Assembly: GCA_003563985.1 (NCBI GenBank)
Contig: PWSR01000105.1
Coordinates: 1-32,119 of the forward strand
Origin: Clostridia bacterium
GTDB lineage: Bacteria; Bacillota; Sulfobacillia; SLMV01
Direction of reading: 5' to 3'
DNA length: 32,119 nucleotides
Below the pieces are notes generated by a model. It worked only from the letters and a program-made list of their open reading frames with translations. It did not search any database and was not told the origin of the DNA. The stretch's first letter is position 1; every line of letters starts with the position of its first letter. Of this stretch, positions 12,604-32,119 are shown piece by piece. Made by a program: the position numbers and the translations under genes.

Positions 12604-13062
12604 TTACCTCCTTTCCGGTTCTTCGTCGAGGAACGCCAGTATCTCGCCCATGTCGGGTACCTCGGACATGGGATAGATCTTCTTGAAGATGATTTCGGAG
12701 TCTTGGTTCAAGATGACGTTGGCGCGTTCGGAGGTGCCCCCTTCGGCGAGGAACAGTTCCAACGATTGCGCGAGTTCGCCGTGGGGCCAGAAATCACAGA
12801 GCAGCGGGGTTTGTTCGATCCCGAGGCTCTCGGCCCAGGCTTTCTTGCAGGGAACCGAGTCCACGCTCACGCCCAGCGCAACCGTATCCCGCTTCGCCAG
12901 GGCCTCGTAGTTTGCTTCCAAGGACAGCATGTGGTCGGCGCACACCTTCGTCCAGGCCAGAGGGTGGAAGGATAGGAGCACCCGCTTCCCCCGGAGTCCA
13001 TCCCGGGTGTGCGTTGTGCCCGTGTGATCCTTCAATTCAAAGTCCATCGAGTTCTCAGTCAA
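12604..13062 (-). CDS. Peroxiredoxin (AhpC/TSA family)
   Basis: MDFELKDHTG, SFHPLAWTKVCADHM (peroxidatic Cys PxxxTxxC), GVSVDSVPCKKAWAESLGI. Confidence 0.93.
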   Translation of the reverse strand: MTENSMDFELKDHTGTTHTRDGLRGKRVLLSFHPLAWTKVCADHMLSLEANYEALAKRDTVALGVSVDSVPCKKAWAESLGIEQTPLLCDFWPHGELAQSLELFLAEGGTSERANVILNQDSEIIFKKIYPMSEVPDMGEILAFLDEEPERR

Positions 13063-13246
13063 GGAAATCCCTCCTGCGCGTAGTATGTTGCGTCACGCTT
13101 CATCACTATGGATACCTTTCCACCGATGCTCCGAGACCAAACTACCGATGCCCCGGTCCGCAGGATGTTGGTGGCGTCCCGGAGAAGTCTGTCGAGACGA
13201 CTTCGACAAGACGGCGAAGTGTGAGCAACAGTGAGAGTGAGGAGGT

Positions 13247-14416
13247 ATGCGAATGCTGGCGATCATAAACGCAGAAATCGTTCCCGTGTCCGGGGACCCC
13301 ATTTCCGGGGGCACCGTCCTCGTGGAGGATGGCAGGATTGTCGCCCTGGGGACCGATGTGGATATCCCCGATGGGACGCGAATCATCGATGCCGCGGGGA
13401 GAACGGTGACGCCCGGGATCGTGGAGGCCCATGCCCACGTGGGGATCAGCGAACAGGGTCTCGGTGCCGAGGGTTCCGACCACAACGAGACCACCGATCC
13501 CGTCACCCCGCATATGCGGGCCATCGACGGTATCAATCCGCGCGATGACGCCTTCCGGGAATTCCGCGAGGCGGGCATCACGTCGGCCCTGGTTCCGCCG
13601 GGAAGCGCGAACCTGTTGGGTGGTAGCGCCGTGGTGATCAAGTGCGCGGGGGACATCGTCGATGACATGGTGATGAAGGATCCCGCGGGCATGAAGGCCG
13701 CCCTGGGCGAGAACCCCAAGGGTGCCTACGGCAAACGCCAGGGAAAGGCGCCCGCCACCCGGATGGGTTCGGCGGCCCTTCTGCGCGAGGCATTGACGGC
13801 GGCGGCCGAGTACCTGGAGAAGAAGGAGAAAGTCGAAGGGGGCGGCGATCCCCCCTCCTATAACGCCAAGCACGAAGCCATGATCCCGGTGCTCCGGGGG
13901 GAGATGCCCCTGCGGATTCACTGCCACCGCGCCGACGACATCGTCACCGCGGTCCGCATATCCGAGGAGTTCGGGCTGAAGTACACCCTGGAACACGTCA
14001 CCGAGGGGCAATACGTAGCCGAGCTGCTGGCCAAGCACCAGGTGCCCTGCGCCGTGGGTCCCACCCTCCAGCACGGATCCAAGGTGGAAAACCGGGAGCG
14101 CGATTTCCGGGCGCCCATCGCCCTGATCCGGGCCGGCGTCCCCATGTGCTTTACCACCGACCACCCGGTTGTTGCGGGGCAGTTCCTACCCCTGACGGCG
14201 GGCATCGCCGTCTCCTGGGGCATGGACTACGATGTGGCCCTCCGCTGCATCACCCTGGCCTCCGCGGAACACGCGGGCGTCGCGGATCGCGTGGGTTCCC
14301 TGGAGGCCGGCAAGGACGCGGACATCGTGATCTGGTCCGGGGATCCCCTGGATTACGGCACCTTCGCCGACGTGACCATCATAGACGGTGAGATCGTCTA
14401 CGAGAGAGAGGTGTGA
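13247..14416 (+). CDS. Amidohydrolase-superfamily protein, imidazolonepropionase/prolidase-like (array member 1)
   Basis: HxH (EAHAHVG), GMKAALGENPK, PLRIHCHRADD, LEHVTEG, TTDHPVV, GSLEAGKDADIVIWSGDPLD. Confidence 0.92.
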   Translation: MRMLAIINAEIVPVSGDPISGGTVLVEDGRIVALGTDVDIPDGTRIIDAAGRTVTPGIVEAHAHVGISEQGLGAEGSDHNETTDPVTPHMRAIDGINPRDDAFREFREAGITSALVPPGSANLLGGSAVVIKCAGDIVDDMVMKDPAGMKAALGENPKGAYGKRQGKAPATRMGSAALLREALTAAAEYLEKKEKVEGGGDPPSYNAKHEAMIPVLRGEMPLRIHCHRADDIVTAVRISEEFGLKYTLEHVTEGQYVAELLAKHQVPCAVGPTLQHGSKVENRERDFRAPIALIRAGVPMCFTTDHPVVAGQFLPLTAGIAVSWGMDYDVALRCITLASAEHAGVADRVGSLEAGKDADIVIWSGDPLDYGTFADVTIIDGEIVYEREV

Positions 14417-15564
14417 CCATGCACGCTTACATAGGAGCCAAGATCTATCCCGTGGACGGTCCCCCCATCGATGATGGCGTGATTCTGGTCGAGGACGGCA
14501 AGATCGCCGGCATCGGGGGTGACCTGCCGATCCCCGACGGGGTCGAGGTCGTGGACCTCTCGGGCAAGGTCATCATCCCCGGGCTCGTGGATGCCCACAG
14601 CCACGCGGGCATGTGGGGTGACGGGGAAGGTGAGGCGTCCCAGGACGGCAACGAGCGCCCCGGGCCCATAACCGCCGACGTGGATGCCATCGATTCGGTG
14701 AACCCCCATCACACCAGTTTCGCCAGCTGCCGCGAGGGAGGCGTGACAACGGTCCAGATCCACCCGGGTTCGGGGAACGCCATCGGCGGACTGTGCTTCG
14801 CCGCCAAGACGGCGGGCGAGGTGGTCGACGACATGGTGCTCAAGGCGCCGACGGGCCTCAAGGGCGCCCTGGGTGAGAACCCCAAGCGCGGTGCGGGCAA
14901 GGATTCCCCCAAGACGCGGATGGGGACCGCGGCCCTCATACGCGACTACTTCGCCCGGGCCCGGGAGTACGGCCGGAAACGAGATGAGGGCAAGTCTCCG
15001 GATCCCGATCGCGGCCTGGAGAACGTCCTCAGGGTGTTGGAGGGCGAGATTCCCTTCCGCGTCCACGCTCACCGCTCCGACGACATCGTGACGGCGGTCC
15101 GCCTCTGTGAAGAACTGGGCATCGCCTACAATATCGAGCACTGCACCGACGGGTATCTCATCGCCGGCTTCCTGGGTGAGCGGGGTATCGCCGCCCACGT
15201 GGGTCCGGGGCTCTCCAGCCGGGGCAAGGTGGAGACCGCCAACCGCCACGAGGGGAACGCGGCGATCCTGGCGGCGGCGGGCGTGAAGGTTTGCCTGGTC
15301 ACCGACCATCCCTTCCTGGATGCCCGCTACCTCATGGCCTACGGGGGGGTTGCGCAGAAGTACGGTCTGTCCTTCGAGGATACCCTGCGGGCGCTGACCA
15401 TCTGTCCCGCGGAATCCATCGGGGTCGACGATCGCGTGGGATCTCTATCCCAGGGCAAGGATGCGGACTTTCTGGTGCTGGCCGGGGAACCATTCAGTTT
15501 CAAGTCCCCCGTACTCGCCACATTCATCGAGGGCGTCGAAGTGTACACGAGGCCGACCCTGTAG
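14413..15564 (+). CDS. Amidohydrolase-superfamily protein (array member 2, most divergent)
   Basis: DAHSHAGMWGD, GLKGALGENPKR, PFRVHAHRSDD, IEHCTDG, VTDHPF; start GTG overlaps previous stop (GTGTGACC) or ATG 14419. Confidence 0.9.
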   Translation: MTMHAYIGAKIYPVDGPPIDDGVILVEDGKIAGIGGDLPIPDGVEVVDLSGKVIIPGLVDAHSHAGMWGDGEGEASQDGNERPGPITADVDAIDSVNPHHTSFASCREGGVTTVQIHPGSGNAIGGLCFAAKTAGEVVDDMVLKAPTGLKGALGENPKRGAGKDSPKTRMGTAALIRDYFARAREYGRKRDEGKSPDPDRGLENVLRVLEGEIPFRVHAHRSDDIVTAVRLCEELGIAYNIEHCTDGYLIAGFLGERGIAAHVGPGLSSRGKVETANRHEGNAAILAAAGVKVCLVTDHPFLDARYLMAYGGVAQKYGLSFEDTLRALTICPAESIGVDDRVGSLSQGKDADFLVLAGEPFSFKSPVLATFIEGVEVYTRPTL

Positions 15565-15577
15565 GAGGGAGAGGAAT

Positions 15578-16732
15578 ATGCTAGCCGTAATCAATGCGAG
15601 ACTGCACCCGGTATCCTCCTCCCCCGGACGGGGTGGGCTATTGATCCGGGAGGGCAAGATCCTGGAGGCAGGAGACATCCGGGTGCCCGAGGACACCCCG
15701 ACCATCGATGCCCGGGAACGAATCGTCACCCCGGGGATCATCGAGGCCCATTGTCACGCCGGCCTGTCCGAGGAGGGCATCGGTTGGGAGGGGAATGACG
15801 GTAACGAGCGCAGCGACCCCATTACACCCCACGTCCGGGCGATCGACGGTGCGAACCCCGAGGACAAGGCCTTTCGGTTCTTCCGGGAGGCGGGCATCAC
15901 GGCATCCCAGCTGACCCCCGGCAGTGCGAACATCATCGGCGGGGAGCAGCTGGTGGCCAAGTCCCGGGAGACCGTGTTCATCGACGAGATGATCGTCCTC
16001 CGCCCCTCGGGTATGAAGGCCGCCCTGGGGGAGAATCCGAAGCGCGTGTACGGTCCCAAGAAGAGCCCCGCGACCCGCATGGGGAACGCTGCGGTGATGC
16101 GGAAATGGCTCGACCGTGCGTTGGCCTACGCGGACAAGAAGGATGCCGGGGACTCGCCGGACTTTGACATGATCCTCGAATCCCTGATCCCGGTGGTCCG
16201 GGGCGATCTTCCCCTGCGCATTCACTGCCACCGGGCCGACGACATATCAACCGCACTGCGTCTCGCCGAGGAGTTTTCCCTGAGATTCTCGCTGGAGCAC
16301 GTGACCCAGGGCCACCTGGTGGCCGATACTCTCGCCGAGCGGGATGTATTCTGCGCCGTCGGGCCCAGCATGGTCCACGAGGCGAAGGTGGAGATGCGGG
16401 GCAACGGGTTCGAGAACGCGGCGAAGATGGTCCGGGCCGGCGTGCGATTCTGTCTCACCAACGACCACCCGGTGGTCCACGGGCGCAACCTGCCCGCCGC
16501 CGCCGGTTTGCTCCAGGCGGCGGGAGTTCCCGCGGCCCAGGCCCTCAAGAGCATCACGTTGGCGGCCGCGGAGCACATCGGCCTCGGGGACCGCATGGGA
16601 TCCCTGGACGTCGGCAAGGATGCCGACGTCGTCATCTGGTCCGGGGATCCCCTGGATGCCCGCAGCTTCGCCGACGTCACCATCATCGACGGCGAGATCG
16701 CCCACTGCAGGGGAGGGGATAGTGGATGCTAG
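15578..16732 (+). CDS. Amidohydrolase-superfamily protein (array member 3)
   Basis: EAHCHAGLSEEGIGWEG, GMKAALGENPKR, PLRIHCHRADD, LEHVTQG, LTNDHPVV, GKDADVVIWSGDPLD; RBS GGAGGGAGAGG. Confidence 0.92.
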   Translation: MLAVINARLHPVSSSPGRGGLLIREGKILEAGDIRVPEDTPTIDARERIVTPGIIEAHCHAGLSEEGIGWEGNDGNERSDPITPHVRAIDGANPEDKAFRFFREAGITASQLTPGSANIIGGEQLVAKSRETVFIDEMIVLRPSGMKAALGENPKRVYGPKKSPATRMGNAAVMRKWLDRALAYADKKDAGDSPDFDMILESLIPVVRGDLPLRIHCHRADDISTALRLAEEFSLRFSLEHVTQGHLVADTLAERDVFCAVGPSMVHEAKVEMRGNGFENAAKMVRAGVRFCLTNDHPVVHGRNLPAAAGLLQAAGVPAAQALKSITLAAAEHIGLGDRMGSLDVGKDADVVIWSGDPLDARSFADVTIIDGEIAHCRGGDSGC

Positions 16733-17880
16733 CCATAACGAACGCGCGGATCCACACGGGTACCGGGGAGACCATCGAGGAGGGTACCATTCTCCTCCGG
16801 AACGGCAAGATCGAGGCCCTCGGGAAGGATATCGACGTGCCCGCCGGGGCGGAGATCTTCGATGCCGGGGGTCGCCCGGTGACGCCGGGCCTCGTGGAGG
16901 CGCACGGCCACGTGGGCCTCGCCAACGAAGGCGTCGGCTGGGAGGGTGATGACGTCAACGAGACCATCGATCCCGTCACCCCCCACATAAGCGCCCTGGA
17001 CGGCATCAATGCCCGGGACCGGGTCTTCGACGACTTCCTGCGCGGCGGTATCACCTCGGTGCAGATCAAGCCGGGTAGCGCCAATATCCTGGGTGGCTCT
17101 GCCGTTGCCGTGAAGACCGGGCCAAACAATGCGGCCGACGACATGATCATCAAGGCCAACACTGGGATGAAGGCGGCGTTGGGTGAGAATCCCAAGCGGG
17201 CCCACGGCGCCGACAAGGATCGTGCTCCCTATACGCGGATGGGTTCCGCAGCGATCATGCGCGATTGGCTCTTCCGGGCCCGGGAGTACGTCGAAAAGCG
17301 TACCGCATCGGATTCCAAGACGGGTTACGATGCCAAGTTGGAGGCCCTGGCCCCGGTGATCCGGGGCGAGATCCCGCTGCGCATTCACTGCCATCGGGCC
17401 GACGATATGCTGACGGCGATCCGAATCGCCGAGGAGTTCGACGTGCCCTACACGCTGGAGCACGCCACCCAGGGATTCAAGATCCCGGAGTACCTGGCGG
17501 AGCGCCGGGTATCCTGTGCCGTGGGTCCGTCGATGTCGCGGGAGGCGAAGGTGGAACTGGAAGGCGTGGGATTCGAGACGGCGGTGGCCTTCCAGAGGGC
17601 GGGCGTTCCCTTTTGCCTGACCACGGACCACCCCGTGATCCGCGCCCTGTACCTGCACATGATCGCGGGCAAGGCCTCGGCGGCGGGGATTGGGCCGGAT
17701 GCGGCCCTGGCCGCCGTGACTGCCTCGGCGGCGGAACACATCGGCATCGCCGACCGGGTGGGTTCCCTGGAGACGGGCAAGGATGCCGATGTGGTGGTCT
17801 GGAGCGATGACCCGCTGGATGGGCGAAGCCATCCCGTGCGGGTCATCATCGATGGTGAGATCGTCTACGAACGGGAGTAA
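16726..17880 (+). CDS. Amidohydrolase-superfamily protein (array member 4)
   Basis: EAHGHVGLANEGVGWEG, GMKAALGENPKR, PLRIHCHRADD, LEHATQG, TTDHPVI; start overlaps previous stop (ATGCTAG). Confidence 0.92.
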   Translation: MLAITNARIHTGTGETIEEGTILLRNGKIEALGKDIDVPAGAEIFDAGGRPVTPGLVEAHGHVGLANEGVGWEGDDVNETIDPVTPHISALDGINARDRVFDDFLRGGITSVQIKPGSANILGGSAVAVKTGPNNAADDMIIKANTGMKAALGENPKRAHGADKDRAPYTRMGSAAIMRDWLFRAREYVEKRTASDSKTGYDAKLEALAPVIRGEIPLRIHCHRADDMLTAIRIAEEFDVPYTLEHATQGFKIPEYLAERRVSCAVGPSMSREAKVELEGVGFETAVAFQRAGVPFCLTTDHPVIRALYLHMIAGKASAAGIGPDAALAAVTASAAEHIGIADRVGSLETGKDADVVVWSDDPLDGRSHPVRVIIDGEIVYERE

Positions 17881-17890
17881 CTCGCAGATC

Positions 17891-17918
17891 GAGGGGCCCG
17901 ATGGGAAGCCGGCCCCTC
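17891..17918 (+). terminator. Intra-operon hairpin, possible attenuator or terminator
   Basis: GAGGGGCC-(12 nt)-GGCCCCTC followed by TCCTTTC. Confidence 0.4.
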
Positions 17919-17959
17919 TCCTTTCGATCCCGCGGGATCGGAGACCGGGAGGTGCGGAA

Positions 17960-19402
17960 ATGCGTCGAGTGGACCTGGCCGTAGTGGGTGGAACCGTGAT
18001 TACCATGGACCCCGACCGAAGGATCGTAGAGGATGGTCTAATCCTGGCGGAAAACGGCAATATCTCCTACGTGGGAAGCCGCGAGGGAGCCGGAGAATTC
18101 GAGGCCCAGAAGACCCTGGATGCCCGCGGTCACCTGGTGCTGCCGGGACTGATCGATGCCCACGGACACGCCGGGCACTCCCTGGTGAAGGCCATGGGCG
18201 ACCGGCCCGACGGGAACTGGTTGCGGGTCGCCGAGGAAGTGTACTTTCGTAATTCCACCGAGGATTTTTGGTGGGCGGAAGCCCGTGTCGCCGGCCTGGA
18301 ACGGCTGCGATTCGGTGTGACCACCGGGTACTCGATGATGGGCAATATCCCGCGGGTGGATGACCTGTGGCCCACCTTGAATCACGCCCGCGGCATGGGC
18401 GAGATCGGTATACGGGACGTCATGGGAGTGGGCCCGGGATTGCCCCCCTGGCCCAAGACCGTCGCCAACTGGGATTCCTCCGGCAATCGAACGCTGCGGG
18501 AAACCGACGCCGATGAGGCCATGGAGATGACCCGGGAGATCTGCCGGCGGGCGGCCCGGGGTGAGTTCGGTGAACGCGTCACTGCCCACGTGAGCCCCTC
18601 GCGCATCGGCGATCCGGACGGATTGGGTGCGGGAGAACTGCGGCGGCAGACGGAGGCCTTTGTCGCCCTCGCCCGGGAGCTCGGCATGATGATCAATGCC
18701 CATGCCTATAAGAACAATATTTCCTACGCGTATGAGCATCACCGCGACGCCCTCGGACCGGGCACGGTGCTGGCGCACTGCACCGGGATTACCCCCGAAG
18801 AGGTTCAATTGCTGGCCGAAACGGACACCCGCGTCGCACATTGCCCCAGCGCCCGGTCGGTCGTACGCGGCTGGTGTCCGACGGTAGACCTCATCGAGGC
18901 GGGGGTGACGGTTGCCCTGGCCACGGACGGTACCGGGCCGGATCGCACCTTCGATGTGATCAAGGAAATGCGGGTCGCCGCCATCATCCACCGGATTCAC
19001 GAGGGGGATGACCGCGTGATGCCCCCGGGCAAGCTGCTGGAAATGATCACCATCGATGCTGCGCGTGCCATGGGGCTGGAAGATAGGCGCGGTTCGCTGG
19101 AAGAGGGCAAGGATGCGGACATCACCCTGGTCAACGCGCGCCAGGCGCACCAGTATCCCCAGGCCATGCCCGTCCACCGCATGGCCTATACAGCCTCGGG
19201 CCAGGATGTCTCCGGGGTGGTCGTGGGCGGTCGCGTGCTGATGGAAGGCGGAAAGCTGCTGGAAATCGACGAGGCGGACATCCTGGACACCGCCCAGTCG
19301 GAGTTCGAGGCAATGGTCGCCCGCTCGGGTCTCGGCAAGGAGCTGGAGATTCCCCCGCAGTTCTGGGGGCGGGCCCGTTTCCGGGAGGAGGAATCCCTGT
19401 GA
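17960..19402 (+). CDS. Amidohydrolase, AtzA/TrzA/SAH-deaminase-like
   Basis: LVLPGLIDAHGHAGHSLVKAMGD, NAHAYKNN, VLAHCTGITPEEVQLLAETDTRVAHCPSARS, ALATDGTG; RBS GGGAGG. Confidence 0.9.
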   Translation: MRRVDLAVVGGTVITMDPDRRIVEDGLILAENGNISYVGSREGAGEFEAQKTLDARGHLVLPGLIDAHGHAGHSLVKAMGDRPDGNWLRVAEEVYFRNSTEDFWWAEARVAGLERLRFGVTTGYSMMGNIPRVDDLWPTLNHARGMGEIGIRDVMGVGPGLPPWPKTVANWDSSGNRTLRETDADEAMEMTREICRRAARGEFGERVTAHVSPSRIGDPDGLGAGELRRQTEAFVALARELGMMINAHAYKNNISYAYEHHRDALGPGTVLAHCTGITPEEVQLLAETDTRVAHCPSARSVVRGWCPTVDLIEAGVTVALATDGTGPDRTFDVIKEMRVAAIIHRIHEGDDRVMPPGKLLEMITIDAARAMGLEDRRGSLEEGKDADITLVNARQAHQYPQAMPVHRMAYTASGQDVSGVVVGGRVLMEGGKLLEIDEADILDTAQSEFEAMVARSGLGKELEIPPQFWGRARFREEESL

Positions 19403-20832
19403 GCCCCTCTGCACCGGGGACCCTCTACCGGGCGCGGTACGTGGTCGGAAACTCCGGAGAAGGTCACCGGATCATCCGCGACGGGGCGGTACTGGTGGTT
19501 GGAAACTCCATCGGGTACGTCGGTCGGGCCGCGGACTTCGACGGGGAGTACGATGAAATCATAGACCTGGGAAATCACATGATCATGCCCGGCCTGGTGA
19601 ACCTCCATTGCCACACCACCGGTGCGCCCCTTTCCCGCAGCCTCCTGGAGGACGCGGGAAACCCGGCCTTCTTCATGTCGGGCCTGTACGACTACGGCAA
19701 GTTCCGGGAGATCTCTCCGGGGGATACCCGGGAGGTTACCCGCTATTCCATCGCGGAACTCCTGAAATCCGGTACGACGACCTTCGTACAGGTGGGTGGT
19801 GCCGATTACGTCGATGTCTTCGAAGAGGCGGGCGTTCGAGCCTATATCGTTCCCTCCTACCGATCGGCCTCCTGGGAAACCCCGGACGGAAGGAAGTTGG
19901 AGTACGCCTGGGACGAGGAAGCGGGCTACCGGGGCCTGGAGCGTGCGGTGGAGTTCGTCGCCGATCATCCGGTCGATGACGGCCTGATCGCCTCCATGTT
20001 GGGTCCCGCCCAGGTGGATACGTGTACACCGGATCTCCTGCGCGAGACCCGTCGGGCTGCGGAGGAATTGGGTTGCAAGATCCACATTCACACCTCCCAG
20101 GCGCACACCGAGGTGGGCGTGATGCTATCCCGGCACGGGACCAGTTCCCTGGAGTTCCTGGAGAGCCTCGGGATGCTCGGCCCGGACGTGATCTTGGCCC
20201 ACGCCATCCTCACCGCCAATCATCCCGACTCCAATATCCCCTGGTGCCGCGACGAGGAAATCCTCCGGGAATCCGGGGCTCACATCGCACACTGCCCCTG
20301 GGTATTCGGCCGGCGCGGCACGACGATGCATTCGTTCGGGCGCTACCGGAAGATGGGAGTGAATCTCGGCATCGGCACGGATACCTTTCCCCAGGACATG
20401 CTCGGGGAGATGAAGTGGGCGGCCATTCTCTCCAAGGTGGCCGACAATAATCCCCTCAGCACCACGGCCGCGGCGGTCTTCGATGCGGCGACCCTGGGCG
20501 GCGCACGGGCCCTGGATCGTCCCGATCTCGGCCGGCTTCATCCGGGGGCCAAGGCCGATATGGTCTTCGTCGATTGCGGGGCCTTCGAGATGGTTCCCGT
20601 CCGCGATCCCATCCGCAACCTCGTGTACAGTGCCGGGAAGTCCGCCGTGGACGGCGTCATGATCGACGGGAAGATGCTGGTGGAAGGTGGCAGGGTGACG
20701 GGGTGGGACGAGGAACGGCTGGCCGCCCGGGTCCAGGATATTGCGGACGATATGTGGGCACAGGCGGCGTACCGGGATCCCCTGGGGCGGAGCCCGGAGG
20801 ACCTATCACCCCCCTCCTACCCCTTTGGTTGA
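19399..20832 (+). CDS. Amidohydrolase, AtzA/TrzA-like, second copy
   Basis: MPGLVNLHCHTTGAPLSRSLLEDAG, KIHIHTSQAHTE, ILAHAILTAN, IAHCPWVFGRRG, GIGTDTFPQDM; GTG start overlapping preceding stop. Confidence 0.9.
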   Translation: MSPSAPGTLYRARYVVGNSGEGHRIIRDGAVLVVGNSIGYVGRAADFDGEYDEIIDLGNHMIMPGLVNLHCHTTGAPLSRSLLEDAGNPAFFMSGLYDYGKFREISPGDTREVTRYSIAELLKSGTTTFVQVGGADYVDVFEEAGVRAYIVPSYRSASWETPDGRKLEYAWDEEAGYRGLERAVEFVADHPVDDGLIASMLGPAQVDTCTPDLLRETRRAAEELGCKIHIHTSQAHTEVGVMLSRHGTSSLEFLESLGMLGPDVILAHAILTANHPDSNIPWCRDEEILRESGAHIAHCPWVFGRRGTTMHSFGRYRKMGVNLGIGTDTFPQDMLGEMKWAAILSKVADNNPLSTTAAAVFDAATLGGARALDRPDLGRLHPGAKADMVFVDCGAFEMVPVRDPIRNLVYSAGKSAVDGVMIDGKMLVEGGRVTGWDEERLAARVQDIADDMWAQAAYRDPLGRSPEDLSPPSYPFG

Positions 20833-20859
20833 GACGCCGGAAGGGAGGATCGAATCGTA

Positions 20860-21663
20860 GTGGCCGATCTGGTGGAAATGCATCCGCGGCAGCTGCGCGA
20901 GCACATTCGCCGCGGCGAATACAACGGGCCCACGGCGGGTCTGGCCCGGGGCTATGCCCAGGCCAACCTGGTCGTCTTGCACCGGGATTTCCTGGAGGAT
21001 TTCCTGGTGTACGCGGCGCGAAATCCCGTGCCGTGCCCGGTTATCGATGTTACGGATGTCGGGGACCCCGAGCCGCGGATCGCCGGGCCGGGGTCGGATC
21101 TGCGCACGGACCGCGGCAGCTACAACGTATATCGTGGGGGTCGATTGGCCGAAGTCATTCCCCGTATGGACGGGCTGTGGGGTCCCGACATGGTGGGGAT
21201 ACTGCTGGGCTGCAGTTATACCTTCGAGGGAGCCCTGGTCCGCGCGGGGATCCCCATGCGCCACGTCGAGGCGGAACGCATCATACCGATGTACGCGACC
21301 GACATTCCGACCCGCGCCGCCGGCCCCTTCTCGGGGCCCGTCGTAGTCACCATGCGTCCGATCCCCGCCCACCAGGTGGCCCGGGCCGCCGCCGTGAGTG
21401 CCCGTTATGCCTTTGCCCACGGCGGTCCCATACACGTGGGAGACCCGGGTCGCATCGGCATACCGGATCTCGGGCGGACGGATTACGGTGATCCCCCCGC
21501 GATGGTCGAGGGCGACGTTCCCGTATTTTGGGCCTGTGGTGTTACCACCCAGAGGGCGATCCAGGCGGCACAGCCGGAGTTGGCCGTGGCCCATACGCCC
21601 GCCTACATGTTCGTCACGGACCTCCTGGATGAAGATCTGAGCGGCACGCGCACCGTGCTATAG
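20860..21663 (+). CDS. DUF1445 / D-glutamate cyclase-like family protein
   Basis: GPTAGLARGYAQANLVVL, PVPCPVIDVTDVG, LLGCSYTFEGALVRAGIPMRHV, HGGPIHVGDPGRIGIPDLGRTDYGD, VPVFWACGVTTQRAI, HTPAYMFVTDLLD. Confidence 0.92.
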   Translation: MADLVEMHPRQLREHIRRGEYNGPTAGLARGYAQANLVVLHRDFLEDFLVYAARNPVPCPVIDVTDVGDPEPRIAGPGSDLRTDRGSYNVYRGGRLAEVIPRMDGLWGPDMVGILLGCSYTFEGALVRAGIPMRHVEAERIIPMYATDIPTRAAGPFSGPVVVTMRPIPAHQVARAAAVSARYAFAHGGPIHVGDPGRIGIPDLGRTDYGDPPAMVEGDVPVFWACGVTTQRAIQAAQPELAVAHTPAYMFVTDLLDEDLSGTRTVL

Positions 21664-21757
21664 GCCGGAGATCGCGCGGAGAACTCGGGTACGGAGATGC
21701 ACCAAAGAGCGGTGCAGCTGAAAGGTGAGAATGGGCCCCAATGAATGGGAGGCAGAG

Positions 21758-22558
21758 ATGGACATGCAAGCAATGTACGAAATGTTGATCGCCTACGGGA
21801 TACGAATTGCCGGGGCGGTACTCGCCCTCGTAATCGGTTTGAGCGTAATCGGGTGGATCGCCCGGCACGTCGAACGACGGCTGGAGAACACCGGCGTGGA
21901 TCGTTCCCTGCACGCCTTTCTCACGTCCATCGTGAGAATCGGTCTGCAGATTCTGCTCCTCATCTCCCTGGCCTCGGTGCTGGGTATGGAGATGGCCTCG
22001 TTTATCGCCGTGATGGCCGCCGCGAGTTTTGCCGTAGGCCTGGCGCTGCAGGGCAGTTTGGCAAACTTCGCCGGCGGTGTACTGATCCTCATACTCAAGC
22101 CCTTCGGTGTCGGTGATTACATAGAGGCCGCCGGAGTCGCGGGGACCGTCCAGGAGATACAGGTGTTCCATACCATCCTGAACACCCCGGATAACCGGCG
22201 CATCGTGGTGCCCAACGCGAACCTGTCCAACAGCGTTACCGTGAACTACTCCATCAATCCGACTCGCCGGGTGGACTTCAAGTTCGGCGTCGGTTACGAC
22301 GATGATCTGGAACTGGTCAAGGAAACGTTGATGGAGATGATCTCAGAACACGAACTGGTCTTCGAGGATCCGGCCCCCCAGGTCCTACTGACGGACTACG
22401 GGGACAGCGCCATCACCTTCAGCGTTCGCGGATGGTGCCGCCGCGACGATTACTGGACGATTTACTGGCAGATCATGGACGCGGCGAAGCGGGTCTTTGA
22501 CGCCAAGGACATCAGCATCCCGTACCCGCAGATGGATGTACACCTGGACAAGGAGTAA
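21758..22558 (+). CDS. mscS: MscS-family small-conductance mechanosensitive channel
   Basis: AAASFAVGLALQGSLANFAGGVLILILKPFGVGDYIE, VPNANLSNSVTVNYS. Confidence 0.95.
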   Translation: MDMQAMYEMLIAYGIRIAGAVLALVIGLSVIGWIARHVERRLENTGVDRSLHAFLTSIVRIGLQILLLISLASVLGMEMASFIAVMAAASFAVGLALQGSLANFAGGVLILILKPFGVGDYIEAAGVAGTVQEIQVFHTILNTPDNRRIVVPNANLSNSVTVNYSINPTRRVDFKFGVGYDDDLELVKETLMEMISEHELVFEDPAPQVLLTDYGDSAITFSVRGWCRRDDYWTIYWQIMDAAKRVFDAKDISIPYPQMDVHLDKE

Positions 22559-22580
22559 TAGCAGGCGCCAGACGCCCCGA

Positions 22581-22622
22581 CCCCGGGCGGTATCGGCCCG
22601 GGGCCCTTCGATTCGTTTTCGT
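22581..22622 (+). terminator. Rho-independent terminator downstream of mscS
   Basis: CCCCGGGC-GGTATCG-GCCCGGGG followed by CCCTTCGATTCGTTTTCGTTTT. Confidence 0.65.
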
Positions 22623-22664
22623 TTTGCAGCATCGTCGGGGATGAGCAGCGTTTGCACTGGAGAT

Positions 22665-22706
22665 GAGAATGGGGAGGGGTCCGGTTTGGATCCCCTCCCC
22701 ATTCTC
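22665..22706. terminator. Long perfect stem between convergent mscS and pcp (possible bidirectional terminator)
   Basis: GAGAATGGGGAGGGG / CCCCTCCCCATTCTC, 15-bp perfect stem, 12-nt loop. Confidence 0.55.
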
Positions 22707-22736
22707 TTGTGTGCGTATCCGTTGCAATCGCAGGAC

Positions 22737-23354
22737 CTAGGCCTCGGCGATTGCTTCGACGGCAACCTCCAGCGCCCGGGCGATGGTCTCCTCGGACATG
22801 CTGGGCACCGGATAGGGTTTCTTGTCCACGACCTGCTCCGGCAGGAAGGGAACGTGGATGAACCCGACCTGAATCGGCAGGTCGTTCTCCTTCACGTAAT
22901 GCGTCGTGGCGTAGAACACGTGGTTGCACACGAAGGTGCCCGCGGTGTAGGAGACGAAGGCGGGTATGCCCTTGTCTTCGAGCCGCGCCACGATGTCTTT
23001 GACCAGAATGGTGGCCCAGTACGCCAACGGTCCGCCGGGGGCGATGGGTTCGTCGGAGGGTTGGTTACCCTCGTTATCCTTGATACGGGCGTCGTCGATA
23101 TTGACGGCCAGTCTCTCGATGCGCATGGCGTGAATCCCGCCGGATTGCCCGACGTTGATCACGATATCCGGTTCTACTCGATCGATCTCCTCGCGGGTAA
23201 CCTCGGCGGCCTTGCCGAAGACCGTGGGGATCTCCTTGGTGATGATTTCGATGTCGCCGATCTTCTTGCCCTCGAGCCGTTCCACGGCGCGGGAAGCGGG
23301 ATTCACCGATTCCCCGCCGAAGGCGTCGAAGCCGGTCATTAGTAGTTTACGCAT
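22737..23354 (-). CDS. pcp: Pyrrolidone-carboxylate (pyroglutamyl) peptidase
   Basis: LLMTGFDAFGGESVNPA, NVGQSGG, ERLAVNIDDARIKDNEG, SYTAGTFVCNHVFY. Confidence 0.95.
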   Translation of the reverse strand: MRKLLMTGFDAFGGESVNPASRAVERLEGKKIGDIEIITKEIPTVFGKAAEVTREEIDRVEPDIVINVGQSGGIHAMRIERLAVNIDDARIKDNEGNQPSDEPIAPGGPLAYWATILVKDIVARLEDKGIPAFVSYTAGTFVCNHVFYATTHYVKENDLPIQVGFIHVPFLPEQVVDKKPYPVPSMSEETIARALEVAVEAIAEA

Positions 23355-23387
23355 GTTCTATACCTCCTCTTGTTCAAATGACGACGT

Positions 23388-24305
23388 CTAAAATGCGAAG
23401 AAGTACATCAACGCGATGTGGACGACGAACAGGGGGACCGCGACCTGGATCTGTTCCTTGATGACCCGCCACTTATCCGTTAGCTCCAGGAGCGCTGCCG
23501 GTACGACGTTGAAGTTGGCCGCCATGATCGTACACAGGGTGCCGCAGTAGCCCGCGGTCATGGCCATGGGCGCTATGATGTTGGGATCCGCGCCGTGGGC
23601 GACGATGACCAGCGGGATGCCGATACCGGTGGTGATGACTGCAAAGGCGGCAAAGGCGTTACCCATGATAATGGTGAATACCGCCATACCCAGCGCGTAG
23701 GCGAATATCGCCCCGAGGATGTGGTCCACCGGGAGTACCATGGAGACCAATTCCGCGATCACCGGTCCTACCCCGGCGGCGTCGAAGATGGCGCCCAGGG
23801 CCGCCAGGAAGGGCGGCAAAATCATGGCCCAGCCGACGGAGTCGTTGATGCGGCGGCCTTCACCCAGGAGGCTGCCGAAGTTGTCGTTGGTCATGATGAT
23901 CGAAGCGATGCCGGCCAGTATGGCGCCGACACCCAGGCCGACCAGCGGGGCGCGGGGAATGTCCAGGAAGGTGAAGCCGAAGGCGAAGATCGGGATGATC
24001 AACACCGCCAGCAGGGGACGCGAGCCGAGCCGTTCCACTTCCTTCTCCCGGTATTCCACGGGCACTTCCTTGGCCGTTCCCGGGCCGATGGCGTGGAAGC
24101 CGCAGATGACGGCCATCAAGACGACCAGCAGCCCACCGAATACCGGTGGTATGAACTCGCCGAAGGCGAGCAGGAGACCGAGGGCCAGCCAGAAGAGGGC
24201 AGATGTGATTCTCTTCGGGTGCTCGGTGTCGCGGTAGTTTGCATAGGCCACGTAGAGGATGAATAGACCGATTACCAGGTAGATATATTCCAATGGTGCG
24301 GTCAT
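23388..24305 (-). CDS. DUF979-family membrane protein (putative 5-oxoproline transporter subunit)
   Basis: Polytopic, GNAFAAFAVITTGIGIPLVIVAHGADPNIIAPMAMTAGYCGTLCTIMAANFNVVPAALLEL; TAATG overlap with DUF969 partner; upstream of pcp. Confidence 0.88.
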   Translation of the reverse strand: MTAPLEYIYLVIGLFILYVAYANYRDTEHPKRITSALFWLALGLLLAFGEFIPPVFGGLLVVLMAVICGFHAIGPGTAKEVPVEYREKEVERLGSRPLLAVLIIPIFAFGFTFLDIPRAPLVGLGVGAILAGIASIIMTNDNFGSLLGEGRRINDSVGWAMILPPFLAALGAIFDAAGVGPVIAELVSMVLPVDHILGAIFAYALGMAVFTIIMGNAFAAFAVITTGIGIPLVIVAHGADPNIIAPMAMTAGYCGTLCTIMAANFNVVPAALLELTDKWRVIKEQIQVAVPLFVVHIALMYFFAF

Positions 24306-24994
24306 TATGCCTCACCACCCTTATCGCGCTGGCGTCTCAGCCAGCCGTCGAAGATGTTGAACTGAATGAATGCCAGGATCAGTAGCGATATCCCGGCGGG
24401 TACCGAATACAGCGCCATGGTGGCCAACTCGACCTCGTATCCCGCGGCATCCATTACCCCTTGGATCAGGATCAGGCCGGCTGCGGCCACGAAGATGTTC
24501 TGGCCGAAGAAGTTGCCGTAGTTCTCCGCGGCGGCGGTCAGGGCGCGTACGCGCTCCATGGTCACCGGGTCGGCGGCGTTTAGTTCTTCCCGCTCCGGAA
24601 TCGTACCCTCGGCCATGGGGGATACGATGGGGCGGACGAATACGGGATGTCCGCCCAGGCGAAGTCCCAGTACCGATGCCAACCAGCGGAACAGGAGATA
24701 GACGTAGGAAACGCGACCGGCTGTCGCGGCGCGAATGCGGAGGATGAGCTCCGCGGCGTATTCCTTGAGGCCGTGCTTTTCCAGCATGCCGATGGCCGGC
24801 AGGGTGAGTACGAAGACCAACATCGTTCGGTTGGCCACGAAACTGTTGCCGATGGTCTCCAGCAGTTCAATGATGGGGATTCCGACCACGAGGCCCGAAG
24901 CGAGACCCGCGATCAGTACCGTCGCCACCGGGTGGAAGCCGGCCGCCAGGCCGACGACCACGATGAGTACACCGATGAGACTGATCCATTCCAT
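24305..24994 (-). CDS. DUF969-family membrane protein (putative 5-oxoproline transporter subunit)
   Basis: FVANRTMLVFVLTLPAIGMLEKHGLKEYA, LGLRLGGHPVFVRPIVSPMAEG, AENYGNFFGQNIFVAAAGLILIQGV. Confidence 0.88.
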   Translation of the reverse strand: MEWISLIGVLIVVVGLAAGFHPVATVLIAGLASGLVVGIPIIELLETIGNSFVANRTMLVFVLTLPAIGMLEKHGLKEYAAELILRIRAATAGRVSYVYLLFRWLASVLGLRLGGHPVFVRPIVSPMAEGTIPEREELNAADPVTMERVRALTAAAENYGNFFGQNIFVAAAGLILIQGVMDAAGYEVELATMALYSVPAGISLLILAFIQFNIFDGWLRRQRDKGGEA

Positions 24995-25458
24995 GGCAGA
25001 TGAAACCTCCCTCATAGAGTATCCTCGTCAGAGTCGGTTGTATTGTCGCTTATGTTCGATAGTGGATGTCCTTCGCACGCACCCCCGCGTTCGCGCGATT
25101 CGGCTTGCGGGCGGCGCCGAGCCATTCTTCGACATGAGATCGCGGATCGCACCCGCTGTGGCTCATATCGTGGTGACGGCGTTGTGCGTCTCATGTAATA
25201 CGTATCCGTAGACTGTCGAGGGACTGCAATCCGGTCGCGCAGCTGGACGGGTCGCAGCGTTTGATGCGGCATTTGGGCGTCACATTGGAAACGAATTCGA
25301 CCTCCCGGGTTTATTATCGTCCGACTTGGCGGCGACTACCGATTCGATCCATCCTTTTCCAGGTAGATGGTTTCACGCACCTGCAAGACAATTGTAGTAT
25401 CTTTGGCGCGGGATGACAAATATGTCCAAGATTCGAGGGGCGCATCTTCGTTCGGGAA

Positions 25459-25932
25459 TTACTCTTCCGGCAGAGTATCGATGAGCTCCGCGGGATCGAT
25501 CTGCCAGTCCTCGGCTCCGCGAATGCACAGGGCCAGGTAGTCGTTCGATGGGCGTTTTTCATGACCACCGTTCATCCGGTAGGCGAAGGCCGATACGGTC
25601 TCCGCCTCGCCGCGGGCATCTTCGATCTGAACCCGCAAGTCGATCTTACTGTAGCTGTCGGGATATCCCTCGAAGCGGTCCAATATCCTCTCGCACCCGG
25701 GTGTTACTTGGTAGAGTGCCCCGGTCAGGGAGCGACCCGCGGCGGGTACGATGGTCAGGGGACCTCGCCATTGCCGGGTATAGTCCTGTAGCACGGCGCG
25801 GGCATAGGGCTCCGCATCGGAACAAAGGTGCAACATGGTATCCTTGCTCAGCAAGCTTCCGTAGGCGAAATAGAGCCGTCCCGGCTGCTCCCGCTCTCTT
25901 GCGGGTGTCTCTTCGTCGTTGTGAATCCTCAT
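25459..25932 (-). CDS. Gamma-glutamylcyclotransferase (GGCT/AIG2-like) family protein
   Basis: LYFAYGSLLSKDTMLHLC, ALYQVTPGCERILDRFEGYPDSYSKIDLRV. Confidence 0.85.
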   Translation of the reverse strand: MRIHNDEETPAREREQPGRLYFAYGSLLSKDTMLHLCSDAEPYARAVLQDYTRQWRGPLTIVPAAGRSLTGALYQVTPGCERILDRFEGYPDSYSKIDLRVQIEDARGEAETVSAFAYRMNGGHEKRPSNDYLALCIRGAEDWQIDPAELIDTLPEE

Positions 25933-26113
25933 AGGTGCACAACTCCCCATCCGTTGGCAGCGCATTGTATGCAAACGCCCCGTTTCTTCGTCGGAGCGAA
26001 CGCCCGGGGCATGATACGTAGCCCCCGCTCCCTTTCGGTGGTCATTGTAGCGTGTAGATAGGGGAGATGTGCAAAGTCCCCGGGCGATCCTGGCGACCGC
26101 CGGGGTGGAAATC

Positions 26114-27718
26114 CTACCGGCCAATGGTTTCGGCTTCCGCCCGGGAGATCAGCTGGAACCGCACGCGGTCGCCGGGTTGCGCCTGGCCCAGGCGCGCCAG
26201 ATCATTGCGAATGACGACGCCGATCTTCGCATAACCCCCGGTCGTTTGGGCGTTGCTACCCATGACGATGGGGTTTCCGTCTCCGGGTACCTGGATGGAT
26301 CCGGGGGCGATGCCCTCGGAAATCACCTCGGGCCCCAGTTGATTGTGGGGGATCGTGCGTTCTCCGGACAGGCGGAGTCCCATCCGGTTGGAATCCCCGG
26401 AGACGATGAAGGTATCCTCCTCCAAGATTCTCCGGGAACGCTCCGGGAAATGATCGGACTGCGGTCCGGGCACCGCCCGAACCCGGAAAATCCCCTGCGC
26501 CGGTTCATCGGCACAAGGCACGGATCCGTCGCCCGCAGGTGGAGGCGATGTTGCCCGCCCCAGCACGGTGCCCGGTTTCAACGGCGCGCCGAGCAGACCG
26601 CCGAAGCCGGCTACGGTGTCGGTGGAGCGGCTGCCCATGATGACCGGGGCATCGAATCCGCCGGCCACGGCCAGGTACGCCCGGAGTCCGGAATGAAACG
26701 CTCCGAAGGAAAGGTGCTGGCCGGCTTCGATTGCCACCGGGTGGCGCGGATCCACCGGGCGCCCGTCGACCAGGGGTTGCGCCTCGGCGCCGGCCAGGGC
26801 GATGAGCGCGTCGGCCAAGAATTCCACCTGCGCCCCCAGGGCGGTCATCTCCAGGGCCGCGGCCCCGGGGGAATTCCCCAGCATGGCGTTGGCGCGATGG
26901 AGGGAGTGGGGGTCGGCGGCCCCGGCGCGTCCCACCCCCAGGTGCATGTAGCCGATGCGTCCGCGGTCCTGGATCGTGGTGTACAGGCCCGGCATGAGGA
27001 CGCGGCAGAGCGGATGGTGCGGCTGGAAGTCGGGTTGGGGTAGGGGCTTCGGAGCGACGGGCCCGGGTACCCGGTAAAACTGCACTTCATCCCCCGGCAA
27101 GAGGAAGGTCGGTTCCGCCGCCAGGGGGTTGAAGAGGCTCACCGGGGTCCGCCCGATCACCGACCAGCCCCCGGGGGATTCCATCGGGTACAGGCCGGTT
27201 TGCAGGCCCGCGATGGCCACCGAGCCGGCGGGAACGCGGACCCGGGGCGTGCGGAGCCGGGGAACGCGGATCCGGGGATCCAGGCCCGACAGGTACGGGT
27301 AGCCCGGGGTGAAACCCAGGAAGCACACGCGGTAGGGCGTTTCGGTGTGGATCCGCACCACCTCGTCGGGCGCCAGCCCGGTCTCCGATGCAATACGCTC
27401 GAGGTCGGGACCGTCGGAGCCTCCGTACGCCACGGGAAGCATGCGCACATCGCGTGTCGAGGGGGATTCGGGCGCGGGATCGATGGCCCCGCGGTGGCCC
27501 TCTACGAAAGTCTTCAGGTCCCCATACGAGAGTTGGCGCCGATCGAACAGTACCAGTACCGTCGTATAGGCGGGCACGATATCCTCGATGCCCGCGGGGC
27601 CCTGCCGCCGAATGTAGCGGGCGGCGGCCAGGACCCTCCGGCTCGTATCCCGGGAGATCGCATCTCCGTATTCGATGAGTAGACCGGCCTCGCCGGCCGG
27701 TGTTACCGTGGCGCGCAA
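26114..27718 (-). CDS. pxpBC: 5-oxoprolinase subunits B and C fused (KipI-KipA type)
   Basis: PxpB: PVAYGGSDGPDLERIA, VCFLGFTPGYPYLSGL, VPAGSVAIAGLQTGLYPMESPGGWSVIGRTP; PxpC: PGLYTTIQDRGRIGYMHLGVGRAGAADPHSLHRANAMLGN, AYLAVAGGFDAPVIMGSRSTD. Confidence 0.95.
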   Translation of the reverse strand: MRATVTPAGEAGLLIEYGDAISRDTSRRVLAAARYIRRQGPAGIEDIVPAYTTVLVLFDRRQLSYGDLKTFVEGHRGAIDPAPESPSTRDVRMLPVAYGGSDGPDLERIASETGLAPDEVVRIHTETPYRVCFLGFTPGYPYLSGLDPRIRVPRLRTPRVRVPAGSVAIAGLQTGLYPMESPGGWSVIGRTPVSLFNPLAAEPTFLLPGDEVQFYRVPGPVAPKPLPQPDFQPHHPLCRVLMPGLYTTIQDRGRIGYMHLGVGRAGAADPHSLHRANAMLGNSPGAAALEMTALGAQVEFLADALIALAGAEAQPLVDGRPVDPRHPVAIEAGQHLSFGAFHSGLRAYLAVAGGFDAPVIMGSRSTDTVAGFGGLLGAPLKPGTVLGRATSPPPAGDGSVPCADEPAQGIFRVRAVPGPQSDHFPERSRRILEEDTFIVSGDSNRMGLRLSGERTIPHNQLGPEVISEGIAPGSIQVPGDGNPIVMGSNAQTTGGYAKIGVVIRNDLARLGQAQPGDRVRFQLISRAEAETIGR

Positions 27719-27721
27719 TGC

Positions 27722-28495
27722 CTAGCGCCCCGGGGCGCGGACGTCGACTCCGGCGCGAAGGAGGCTCCGGTGGACGGCCCGCGAAATTCCCAGTGCCTCC
27801 AGGCTGTCCCCGTGAACGCAGATGCTTTCAGCTTCCATGGGGATAACCTTCCCGCTCTGCGTCGTCACCTGTCCCCGCATTGCGATGTCCTCGGCCTGGG
27901 CGGCCGCGCGTTCCGGGTCGTCAAATACGCTCCCGGGAACCCGCCGCGAAACCAGGTTGCCCGCGTCATCGTACAGCCGATCCGCGAAGGCCTCGGCGAC
28001 GACCTTGAGTCCCGCCTCTCGCGCCCGCTCCAGGAAAGTCGTTCCCGCCGGGAGGTAGAAGTACAAGTCCATATCCAGGGTTTTCATTCCCTCGATGAGC
28101 CCCCGGGCCGTGGGTTCGTGGTTCACCGCCGTGTTGTAAATGGCGCCGTGGGCCTTCACGTGGTTGAGTTCGACGCCTTCTACCCGGCAGAACATGTCCA
28201 GCGCACCCACCTGGTAGATGAGATCGTTTACGATTTCCTCGGGTGTCAAATCCATGCTGCGGCGCCCGAACCCAACCAGATCCGGGTAGCTGGTGTGCGC
28301 GCCTACGCTGACTCCCATCTCCGCCGCCGCCGCCACCGTCCGCCGCATGACCATGGGATCCGAGGCGTGGAAACCACACGCAACGTTGGCAGAGCTGATG
28401 ACCTCCATGATCTCGTCGTCGTGACCCATCCGATAATTGCCGAAACTCTCGCCCAGGTCGCTGTTGAGGTCCAACGTTCGATCCAAACCGGACAC
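27722..28495 (-). CDS. pxpA: 5-oxoprolinase subunit A (LamB/YcsF family)
   Basis: LDLNSDLGESFGNYRMGHDDEIMEVISSANVACGFHASDP, VGAHTSYPDLVGFGRR, VKAHGAIYN, CVHGDS; start GTG 28495 or TTG 28486. Confidence 0.95.
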   Translation of the reverse strand: MSGLDRTLDLNSDLGESFGNYRMGHDDEIMEVISSANVACGFHASDPMVMRRTVAAAAEMGVSVGAHTSYPDLVGFGRRSMDLTPEEIVNDLIYQVGALDMFCRVEGVELNHVKAHGAIYNTAVNHEPTARGLIEGMKTLDMDLYFYLPAGTTFLERAREAGLKVVAEAFADRLYDDAGNLVSRRVPGSVFDDPERAAAQAEDIAMRGQVTTQSGKVIPMEAESICVHGDSLEALGISRAVHRSLLRAGVDVRAPGR

Positions 28496-28546
28496 CCCCT
28501 GAACGAAATTTCTCCGCCAAGCCCCGCGATCCTCCCCGGGGAGTGC

Positions 28547-28575
28547 TTGCATAAACATTCTTTTATCGGTATACT
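28547..28575 (+). promoter_or_regulatory. Sigma70-like promoter of argGH
   Basis: TTGCAT - 17 bp - TATACT, about 42 bp upstream of the argG ATG, in a local AT-rich patch. Confidence 0.6.
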
Positions 28576-28616
28576 CATACGAGTTTCGGCGCGCGAAGCG
28601 CGAGAGAGGGGTCGCT

Positions 28617-29843
28617 ATGGATAAGGTAGTACTGGCATATTCCGGCGGATTGGACACCTCCGTGGCCATCAAATGGCTCGAGGAGAAATACGGGTTTGGC
28701 GTGATCGCCCTGGCCGCCGACGTAGGCGAGGGTAAGGATCTCGATGCCGTGAAGAAGAAGGCCCTGGACATCGGGGCCCTGGATTGCCACGTGGTGGATG
28801 TGCGAGAGGAGTTTGCGCGGGAGTACGCCTTCCCGGCGATGAAGGCCAACGCTCTCTACGAGGGACGCTATCCGTTATCCTCGGCGCTCTCCCGGCCCCT
28901 GATATCGAAGTTGCTGGTGGACTGCGCGGAGGCGGAAGGGGCCGTGGCCGTCGCCCACGGTTGTACCGGCAAGGGCAACGACCAGGTCCGTTTCGACGTT
29001 TCGGTCAAAGCCCTGAATCCCGGGATCGACGTGGTGGCCCCGGTTCGGGAGTGCCCCATGTCCCGTGAAGACGCCATCGCCTACGCGGCCAAGTGGAACA
29101 TCCCGGTCCCCGTGGGCAAGGAAAACCCCTTCAGCATCGATGAAAACCTCTGGGGGCGCAGCATCGAGTGCGGCGTCCTGGAGGATCCGTGGGTCGAGGC
29201 CCCCGCCGAGGCCTACGCCTGGACGCAGGATCCCGGGGAGACCCCCGCGGATGCCCAGTACGTGGAGATCGAATTCGTAAGCGGGCTTCCCGTGTCCGTG
29301 GACGGGGTGTCCATGTCCCCGGCCCACTTGATATCCCACCTCAATCACCTGGGTGGGCTGCACGGCGTAGGACGGATCGACCACGTGGAAAACCGCCTGG
29401 TCGGAATCAAGTCCCGGGAAATCTACGAGGCACCGGGCGCGGTGATGCTCCTGGAGGCACATCGCGACCTGGAGGACCTGACGCTGCCCCGGGAGCTCGG
29501 CCATTTTAAGAAGACCATCGAACCCAAGTACGCGGAACTGGTCTATTTCGGTCTTTGGTTCTCGCCGCTTCGGGACGCCCTGGATGCTTTCATCGATAGC
29601 TCGCAGCAACGGGTTTCGGGTACGGTACGGCTGAAGTTGCACCGGGGAACCTGTACGGCCGTCGGCCGGAAATCCGCCAATTCCCTCTACGATCTTTCCC
29701 TGGCCACCTACGGCGGGGACGATGCCTTTGACCACCGCGCCGCCGAGGGTTTCATCTCGGTTTGGGGACTTCCCACCGCGGTACACGCGGCCGTCGGCAA
29801 GAACAAGAAGAATCCCGCGGGTTACGAGAAGGCGGTGGACTGA
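28617..29843 (+). CDS. argG: Argininosuccinate synthase
   Basis: [45 protein letters not shown]. Confidence 0.97.
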
Positions 29844-31247: not shown

Positions 31248-31283
31248 TCCTTTCGTCGTCGCAGCGATGGAATGACGGGAACG

Positions 31284-31313
31284 AGGGGCGATCTCCGGAT
31301 CGCCCCTTTTTTC
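31284..31313 (+). terminator. Rho-independent terminator of argGH
   Basis: AGGGGCGATC-TCCG-GATCGCCCCT then T-run. Confidence 0.9.
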
Positions 31314-31382
31314 TTGCGGTCTACCCTGCAGGTGTTTCCCGGTTCGCAGATGGGCAAGGTAGTAATAGAGAGGGATGGAGGG

Positions 31383-32119
31383 ATGAGCTTGGAAGCCAAG
31401 TCTCTGGAAGAAGGTCTCAGGGAACGCGTTGACCCGGGTTTTTGCCTGGTCGACAATCGTCAACTGCCCGTACCCTTTAGCCAACCTCGCGTCCCCACGT
31501 CGGACGCCCGGATCGCGCTGATCTCCTCCGGTGGGTTTCATCACCGAGAAGATCCCCCCTTCGATACCGAGGATCCCCTGGGGGACCCCAGCTACCGGGT
31601 GATCCCCCGGGGATCGACGCGGGAGGACCTGGGTATCGCCCACACCCACTACGACCACAGTTACGTGGATGCCGATCTCAATTGCGCCCTTCCCCTGGAG
31701 CATATCGAGACCCTGGTCGAGCGGGGTGCCATCGGGGAGAGTGCACCTCGCCACCTGAGCTTTATGGGATACTGCCTCAGGACGGCGGAACTGGCGGAGG
31801 AGAATGCCCGCGAGGCCGGTGAATTGCTCGCCGCCGACGCGGTGGACGCGGCGATCCTCGCCCCCACCTGACCGCTGTGCAATCAATCCGTGGGATTGAT
31901 CGCACGCGTACTGGAAGACCTCGGTATACCGACCGTAACCATCAGTCTATTCCCCGAGGTGACGGCGAGGGCAGCACCGCCCCGGACCGTAGAGGTTGCC
32001 TTCCCCTTCGGCGCTCCCTTCGGGGACCCCGGGAATTCCGACCTGCAAGTGGCGGTCCTCCGCTCCTGCCTTGAGTTGTTGGACGAGGCGAAAGAAGGGG
32101 GAACCGTGAAGCGTCCGGA
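31383..32119 (+). CDS. Glycine/sarcosine/betaine/D-proline reductase selenoprotein B family (GrdB/PrdB-like), TGA 31869-31871 read as selenocysteine; 3' end outside window
   Basis: Upstream: ISSGGFHHREDPPF, GDPSYRVIPRG, AHTHYDHSYVDADLNCALPLEHIETLVERGAIG, SFMGYC, VDAAILAPT; then U-PLCNQSVGLIARVLEDLGIPTVTISLFPEVTARAAPPRTVEVAFPFGAPFGDPGNSDLQVAVLRSCLELLDEAKEGGTVKRP in the same frame to the window end. Confidence 0.85.
31877..31905 (+). promoter_or_regulatory. Candidate bacterial SECIS hairpin
   Basis: GTGCAATCAATCC-GTG-GGATTGATCGCAC, 12 of 13 pairs (one A.C mismatch), starting 5 nt after the TGA, apical loop GTG 18 nt after the TGA. Confidence 0.65.

Follow-up and report, generated by a model that had tools for sequence, protein, structure and literature searches.

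A tandem array of four amidohydrolase paralogs in a Clostridia genome, built around an old two-gene unit

Genes at the locus

The window, a stretch of 32,119 nucleotides, exhibits four intact and tightly packed amidohydrolase paralogs (383-389 aa) arranged head to tail on the + strand at positions 13247-17880 (Table 1). Relative to member 1, member 2 is 44% identical, and members 3 and 4 are both 56% identical. A sequence-only reading of this DNA had proposed four tandem paralogs with a common set of motifs and overlapping or near-overlapping junctions. The open frames bear this out: the motifs that it quoted are found in the four members, and the successive junctions are a 4-base overlap with a GTG start of member 2 (or a 2-base gap with the better-spaced ATG), a 13-base gap, and a 7-base overlap (ATGCTAG). 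The ATG codons at 13253 (member 1) and 14419 (member 2) probably have better Shine-Dalgarno spacing than the starts at 13247 and 14413. No sigma-70-like promoter was found in 12900-23400, where 2.2 would be expected by chance, so that this result is uninformative.

The window is one contig (PWSR01000105.1) of a 1.88 Mb draft genome (GCA_003563985.1). Its named close relatives are Clostridia MAGs labelled B1Sed10, CSSed, T1Sed10 and T3Sed10. The labels B1Sed10, T1Sed, CSSed10 and T3Sed10 are names of datasets from sediments of hypersaline soda lakes in the Kulunda Steppe (PMC6146748), and the genome of the window presumably has the same soda-lake origin as these relatives.

Table 1. Features of the window, with supporting evidence
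Feature	Position	Strand	Evidence
Member 1, type A amidohydrolase	13247..14416	+	likely real start ATG 13253; fold TM 0.93-0.94 to 3OOQ
Member 2, type B amidohydrolase	14413..15564	+	likely real start ATG 14419; B clade 100/99; TM 0.92-0.94 to 3OOQ
Member 3, probably A-derived, family-restricted	15578..16732	+	own clade 100/99, 8 rows; Thr304 -> Asn throughout clade
Member 4, probably A-derived, family-restricted	16726..17880	+	own clade 100/99, 6 rows; sister of member 3, 96/89
AH5, TRZ/ATZ-type amidohydrolase	17960..19402	+	PF01979 131.6 bits; below all NCBIfam cut-offs
AH6, TRZ/ATZ-type amidohydrolase	19399..20832	+	PRK06151 415.8 bits (cut-off 416)
D-glutamate cyclase family protein	20860..21663	+	PF07286 E 3e-57; NF003969 343.9 bits (above cut-off 324)
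Apparent 5-oxoproline island	20860-28849		D-glutamate cyclase, DUF979/DUF969, GGACT-family protein, fused PxpB/C, PxpA
PrdB/GrdB-like gene, likely selenoprotein	31272-32117	+	in-frame TGA 31869-31871, motif PTUPLC; read through TGA, TIGR04483 E 3e-39, 135 bits (below cut-off 300)

Two further amidohydrolase genes, AH5 and AH6, belong to another subfamily of the superfamily and extend the row to six genes. AH5 comes after the array both in the genus and in a related incomplete draft (G007), and AH6 is conserved downstream of AH5. In the genus, the D-glutamate cyclase gene, co-directional with the array, comes next, with 5-oxoprolinase genes (PxpA and PxpB/C in the window) and arginine genes after it; in the window, DUF969, DUF979 and GGACT-family genes lie in between. 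This stretch appears to be a 5-oxoproline island partly retained in another genome (G001), where the D-glutamate cyclase gene is also present; G007 retains AH5, AH6, DUF969 and DUF979. At the end of the window, a PrdB/GrdB-like gene with an in-frame TGA likely encodes a selenoprotein, since a tRNA-Sec scoring 68.8, above the gathering score of 47, is found in the same genome.

Subfamily, fold and predicted active site

All four frames score above the curated cut-offs of PF01979 (48-59 bits, cut-off 25) and PF07969 (53-67 bits, cut-off 29.7). Members 2 and 4 match 3OOQ, an amidohydrolase of Thermotoga maritima, at E-values of 2e-90 to 2e-91 with about 41% identity. Together with a gene order (1-2-3-4) that each of the genus's three genomes preserves, these matches indicate that the array is not a product of chance. 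Structure models of members 1 and 2 (pLDDT 87.5 and 89.5) both retrieve 3OOQ first in Foldseek (TM 0.92-0.94), followed at TM about 0.6 by COG1228-type prolidases/carboxypeptidases and isoaspartyl dipeptidase. The homology to 3OOQ is full-length, with a shared fold over 383-387 columns. Within the amidohydrolase superfamily, members 1-4 thus fall into a single uncharacterised subfamily, of which 3OOQ is the sole close solved relative.

No NCBIfam equivalog cut-off was approached by any of the four members. Xaa-Pro dipeptidase (NF051886; 45-66 bits, cut-off 500) and imidazolonepropionase HutI (TIGR01224; 42-68 bits, cut-off 298) were rejected as identities, as were dihydropyrimidinase, allantoinase and deaminases, which all score far under their cut-offs.

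All 141 aligned rows of the subfamily have H62, H64, H225, H227, H250 and D305 (numbered as in member 1), and 140 of them have the lysine K150. In the models of members 1 and 2, these residues lie at or near strand ends, in agreement with the superfamily's HxH, Lys, His, His, Asp set at the strand ends of a barrel. Each member carries a complete site of the binuclear type, composed of HxH after strand 1 (H62, H64), a presumably carboxylated lysine that closes strand 4 (K150), and the histidines of strand 5 (H225/H227) and strand 6 (H250) and the aspartate of strand 8 (D305). By analogy with the superfamily, the lysine may be carboxylated and two metals bound.

The complete set is present in all four members, as the sequence-only reading had noticed for the apparent metal ligands; with every ligand kept, pseudogenes or an inactive partner were rejected. 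Between orthologs of the genus, members 1-3 have dN/dS values of 0.08-0.11 and member 4 has values of 0.12-0.21, all of them rough because dS is near or above 1. These values point to purifying selection on all four members and, with the ligands, uphold the view that the copies reflect functional diversification rather than decay.

Differences between types A and B tend to fall near the ligands. In the branch of the window, 10 positions are fixed differently between A and B and 73 are fixed alike; taking distance along the chain as a proxy for spatial distance, 4 of the 10 distinguishing positions are no more than three residues away from a ligand, compared with 7 of the 73 alike (p 0.024). 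The four ligand-proximal differences are M149/L, L222/F, V251/C and V308/F. In member 3, an asparagine replaces Thr304, which adjoins the ligand Asp305. Such differences would fit altered pockets with a shared chemistry.

Phylogeny and linkage of A and B

In a tree of 91 rows, member 2 falls within clade B (28 rows, support 100/99), and member 1 joins type A genes from other families (100/99). Members 3 and 4 each have a clade of their own (100/99 in both cases), and the two clades are sisters (96/89). Neither was seen outside the family of the window, a group of soda-lake Clostridia MAGs; their position in the tree marks them as probable later duplicates on the A side. The support for A as a single clade (72/88) is not firm, and the test of duplication of A inside the window's family versus earlier gave p-AU 0.139.

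A recent lineage-specific amplification of one gene, with no lasting function, would account for the single subfamily and the tandem layout. It is scarcely credible: the tree contradicts it, a forced grouping of the four genes of the genus is rejected (p-AU 3e-14), identity across the genus is 73-86% for orthologs against 44-56% for paralogs, and dN/dS is well under 1. The side-by-side copies of one hydrolase described by the sequence-only reading are indeed of one subfamily, but they are not equivalent: member 2 represents an ancient separate clade, and members 3 and 4 are probably A-derived. On its question of a lineage-specific or an ancient array, an expansion at the level of the genus is rejected, the A-B pair is ancient, and members 3 and 4 were seen in the window's family only. 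Neither scattering of the paralogs nor ligand loss, which it had named as grounds for refuting a conserved array, was observed.

Tandem pairs of A followed by B occur in many families of Bacillota, including Fermentithermobacillaceae; they were also seen in a MAG labelled Halothermothrix and in several further Bacillota. In the class and phylum samples, every one of the 33 type B genes (counted by profile at 566 bits or more) has an A-like gene directly upstream. Constant co-occurrence in a fixed order, one of the features looked for in a heteromer, is thus seen at the level of genomic linkage for 33/33 B genes. The distances among A genes are correlated with those among B genes (r 0.85, 0 of 2000 permutations), a value from which shared species history is not removed. 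Together the two genes make up an old unit of fixed order.

Outside the window's family, no flanking gene is common to all pairs; a wider shared operon pointing to the substrate was rejected accordingly, as no gene beyond the pair is conserved across families. As separate observations, three pairs in other families of the phylum have the more B-like gene first (G356:C2:14101-16408, G332:C12:129893-132209 and G449:C1:13688-16007), and at one locus (L077/L196; L077 4033-5288) a type-B gene is split into two frames beside an intact A, either a broken pair or an assembly error.

The subfamily was found in 214 of the 399 genomes of the phylum sample, 178 of them with a single copy. Groups of three or four tandem members are found separately in G182, G495, G223, G454 and G005. 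The array of G182 (L189, G182:C32:16297-20970), in another family of the phylum, comprises four more distant subfamily members; three-gene groups are found at L191, L190, L192 and L155. These tandem groups, including the four-gene array of G182, arose separately from that of the window. Within the family of the window, the 1-2 and 3-4 modules are separable: G007 exhibits 3-4 without 1-2, and G006 exhibits 1-2-3 without 4, both being incomplete drafts.

These observations bear on the possibility that the array expands a substrate range and nothing else. The four genes would then encode independent homomeric hydrolases, expressed from a single transcript and each acting on its own substrate within a family of substrates, and their adjacency would be a remnant of tandem duplication and of common regulation. 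The complete sites of all four members, the many single-copy genomes, the separate tandem groups, which imply that tandem duplication is common in the subfamily, and the persistence of 3-4 without 1-2 in G007 all agree with such an explanation. It leaves unexplained why the strongly diverged and old A and B stay together in 33 of 33 cases while their flanks change, and we regard it as a serious possibility that nevertheless falls clearly on the improbable side.

Peptide-related genes recur around the pairs. An M20 peptidase gene lies directly downstream of the pair in three lineages (L053, L056/L057 and L078/L079), and the G006, G003 and G004 arrays are bordered by genes for M17, prolyl oligopeptidase or Opp permease. 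In the window, the D-glutamate cyclase and 5-oxoprolinase genes downstream add to this peptide-related context. Since the four genomes counted have just 7-13 M20 genes each, three separate direct M20 neighbours are more than expected, on a post hoc comparison.

A and B could alternatively hydrolyse one after the other within a single pathway, for example by opening the ring of a cyclic dipeptide, hydantoin or lactam and then cleaving the amide; AH5, AH6 and the 5-oxoproline enzymes would act further along the same route. The co-directional run 1-2-3-4-AH5-AH6-D-glutamate cyclase in the genus is in line with this scheme, and so are the A/B differences close to the ligands. Outside the window's family, however, AH5, AH6 and the 5-oxoproline genes do not adjoin the pair, and we consider this full route distinctly unlikely.

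Interpretation and comparison with known enzymes

Our preferred reading, held tentatively and with a little less than even confidence, is that A and B constitute a two-gene hydrolase unit, a mixed oligomer or consecutive steps, in the catabolism of peptides or amino-acid derivatives, to which members 3 and 4 add specificities or partners. All four members would be metallohydrolases of the 3OOQ subfamily, presumably cytosolic. Members 1 and 2 would act together, either as subunits of one mixed oligomer or at successive steps, on amide bonds of peptides or of N-acyl or cyclic amino-acid derivatives, and the products may be fermented. Members 3 and 4, as A-side duplicates, would contribute additional specificities or alternative partners. 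The sequence-only reading had suggested a family of related substrates or a hetero-oligomer; the unbroken adjacency of A and B speaks for members 1 and 2 acting jointly, which this genomic linkage makes likely, and the separable 3-4 module speaks for added specificities. Against this reading, co-transcription or sequential steps would leave the same genomics as a physical association, and the peptide-related neighbours vary and were chosen post hoc from the pair loci. Since most genomes bearing the subfamily are single-copy, a mixed oligomer is not required by the fold.

A narrower form, in which A and B make an obligate mixed-subunit amidohydrolase with two different competent sites, and members 3 and 4 serve as alternative subunits in soda-lake Clostridia, appears rather unlikely. 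To our knowledge, a heteromeric assembly of this kind would be unusual for the amidohydrolase superfamily.

Around half of the sampled genomes of the phylum carry the subfamily, yet our literature search found no described function for 3OOQ and no substrate for any close relative. The conserved A-B pair provides a concrete handle on whether the unit is heteromeric and on what it hydrolyses. The A/B split also provides a clear example of paralogous genes that have diverged close to the metal site during a long period of linkage.

Among known systems, 3OOQ is the closest to the array, sharing the metal ligands and the GENPK, HRADD and DHP motifs, and it is known from its structure only. The COG1228 prolidases and Xaa-Arg carboxypeptidases (3N2C, 3FEQ, 3MKV, 3MTW) share the fold of the superfamily and its HxH, Lys, His, His, Asp arrangement with the members, but only 16-19% identity, at TM about 0.6. 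HutI shares the superfamily, with profile matches at both ends. The metal-dependent bile salt hydrolases of Bilophila are much larger (945 aa) and secreted, and are likened here by description rather than by sequence relation; like the members of the array, they belong to the amidohydrolase superfamily, exhibit the same type of ligand set and occur in tandem copies (PMC13081902).
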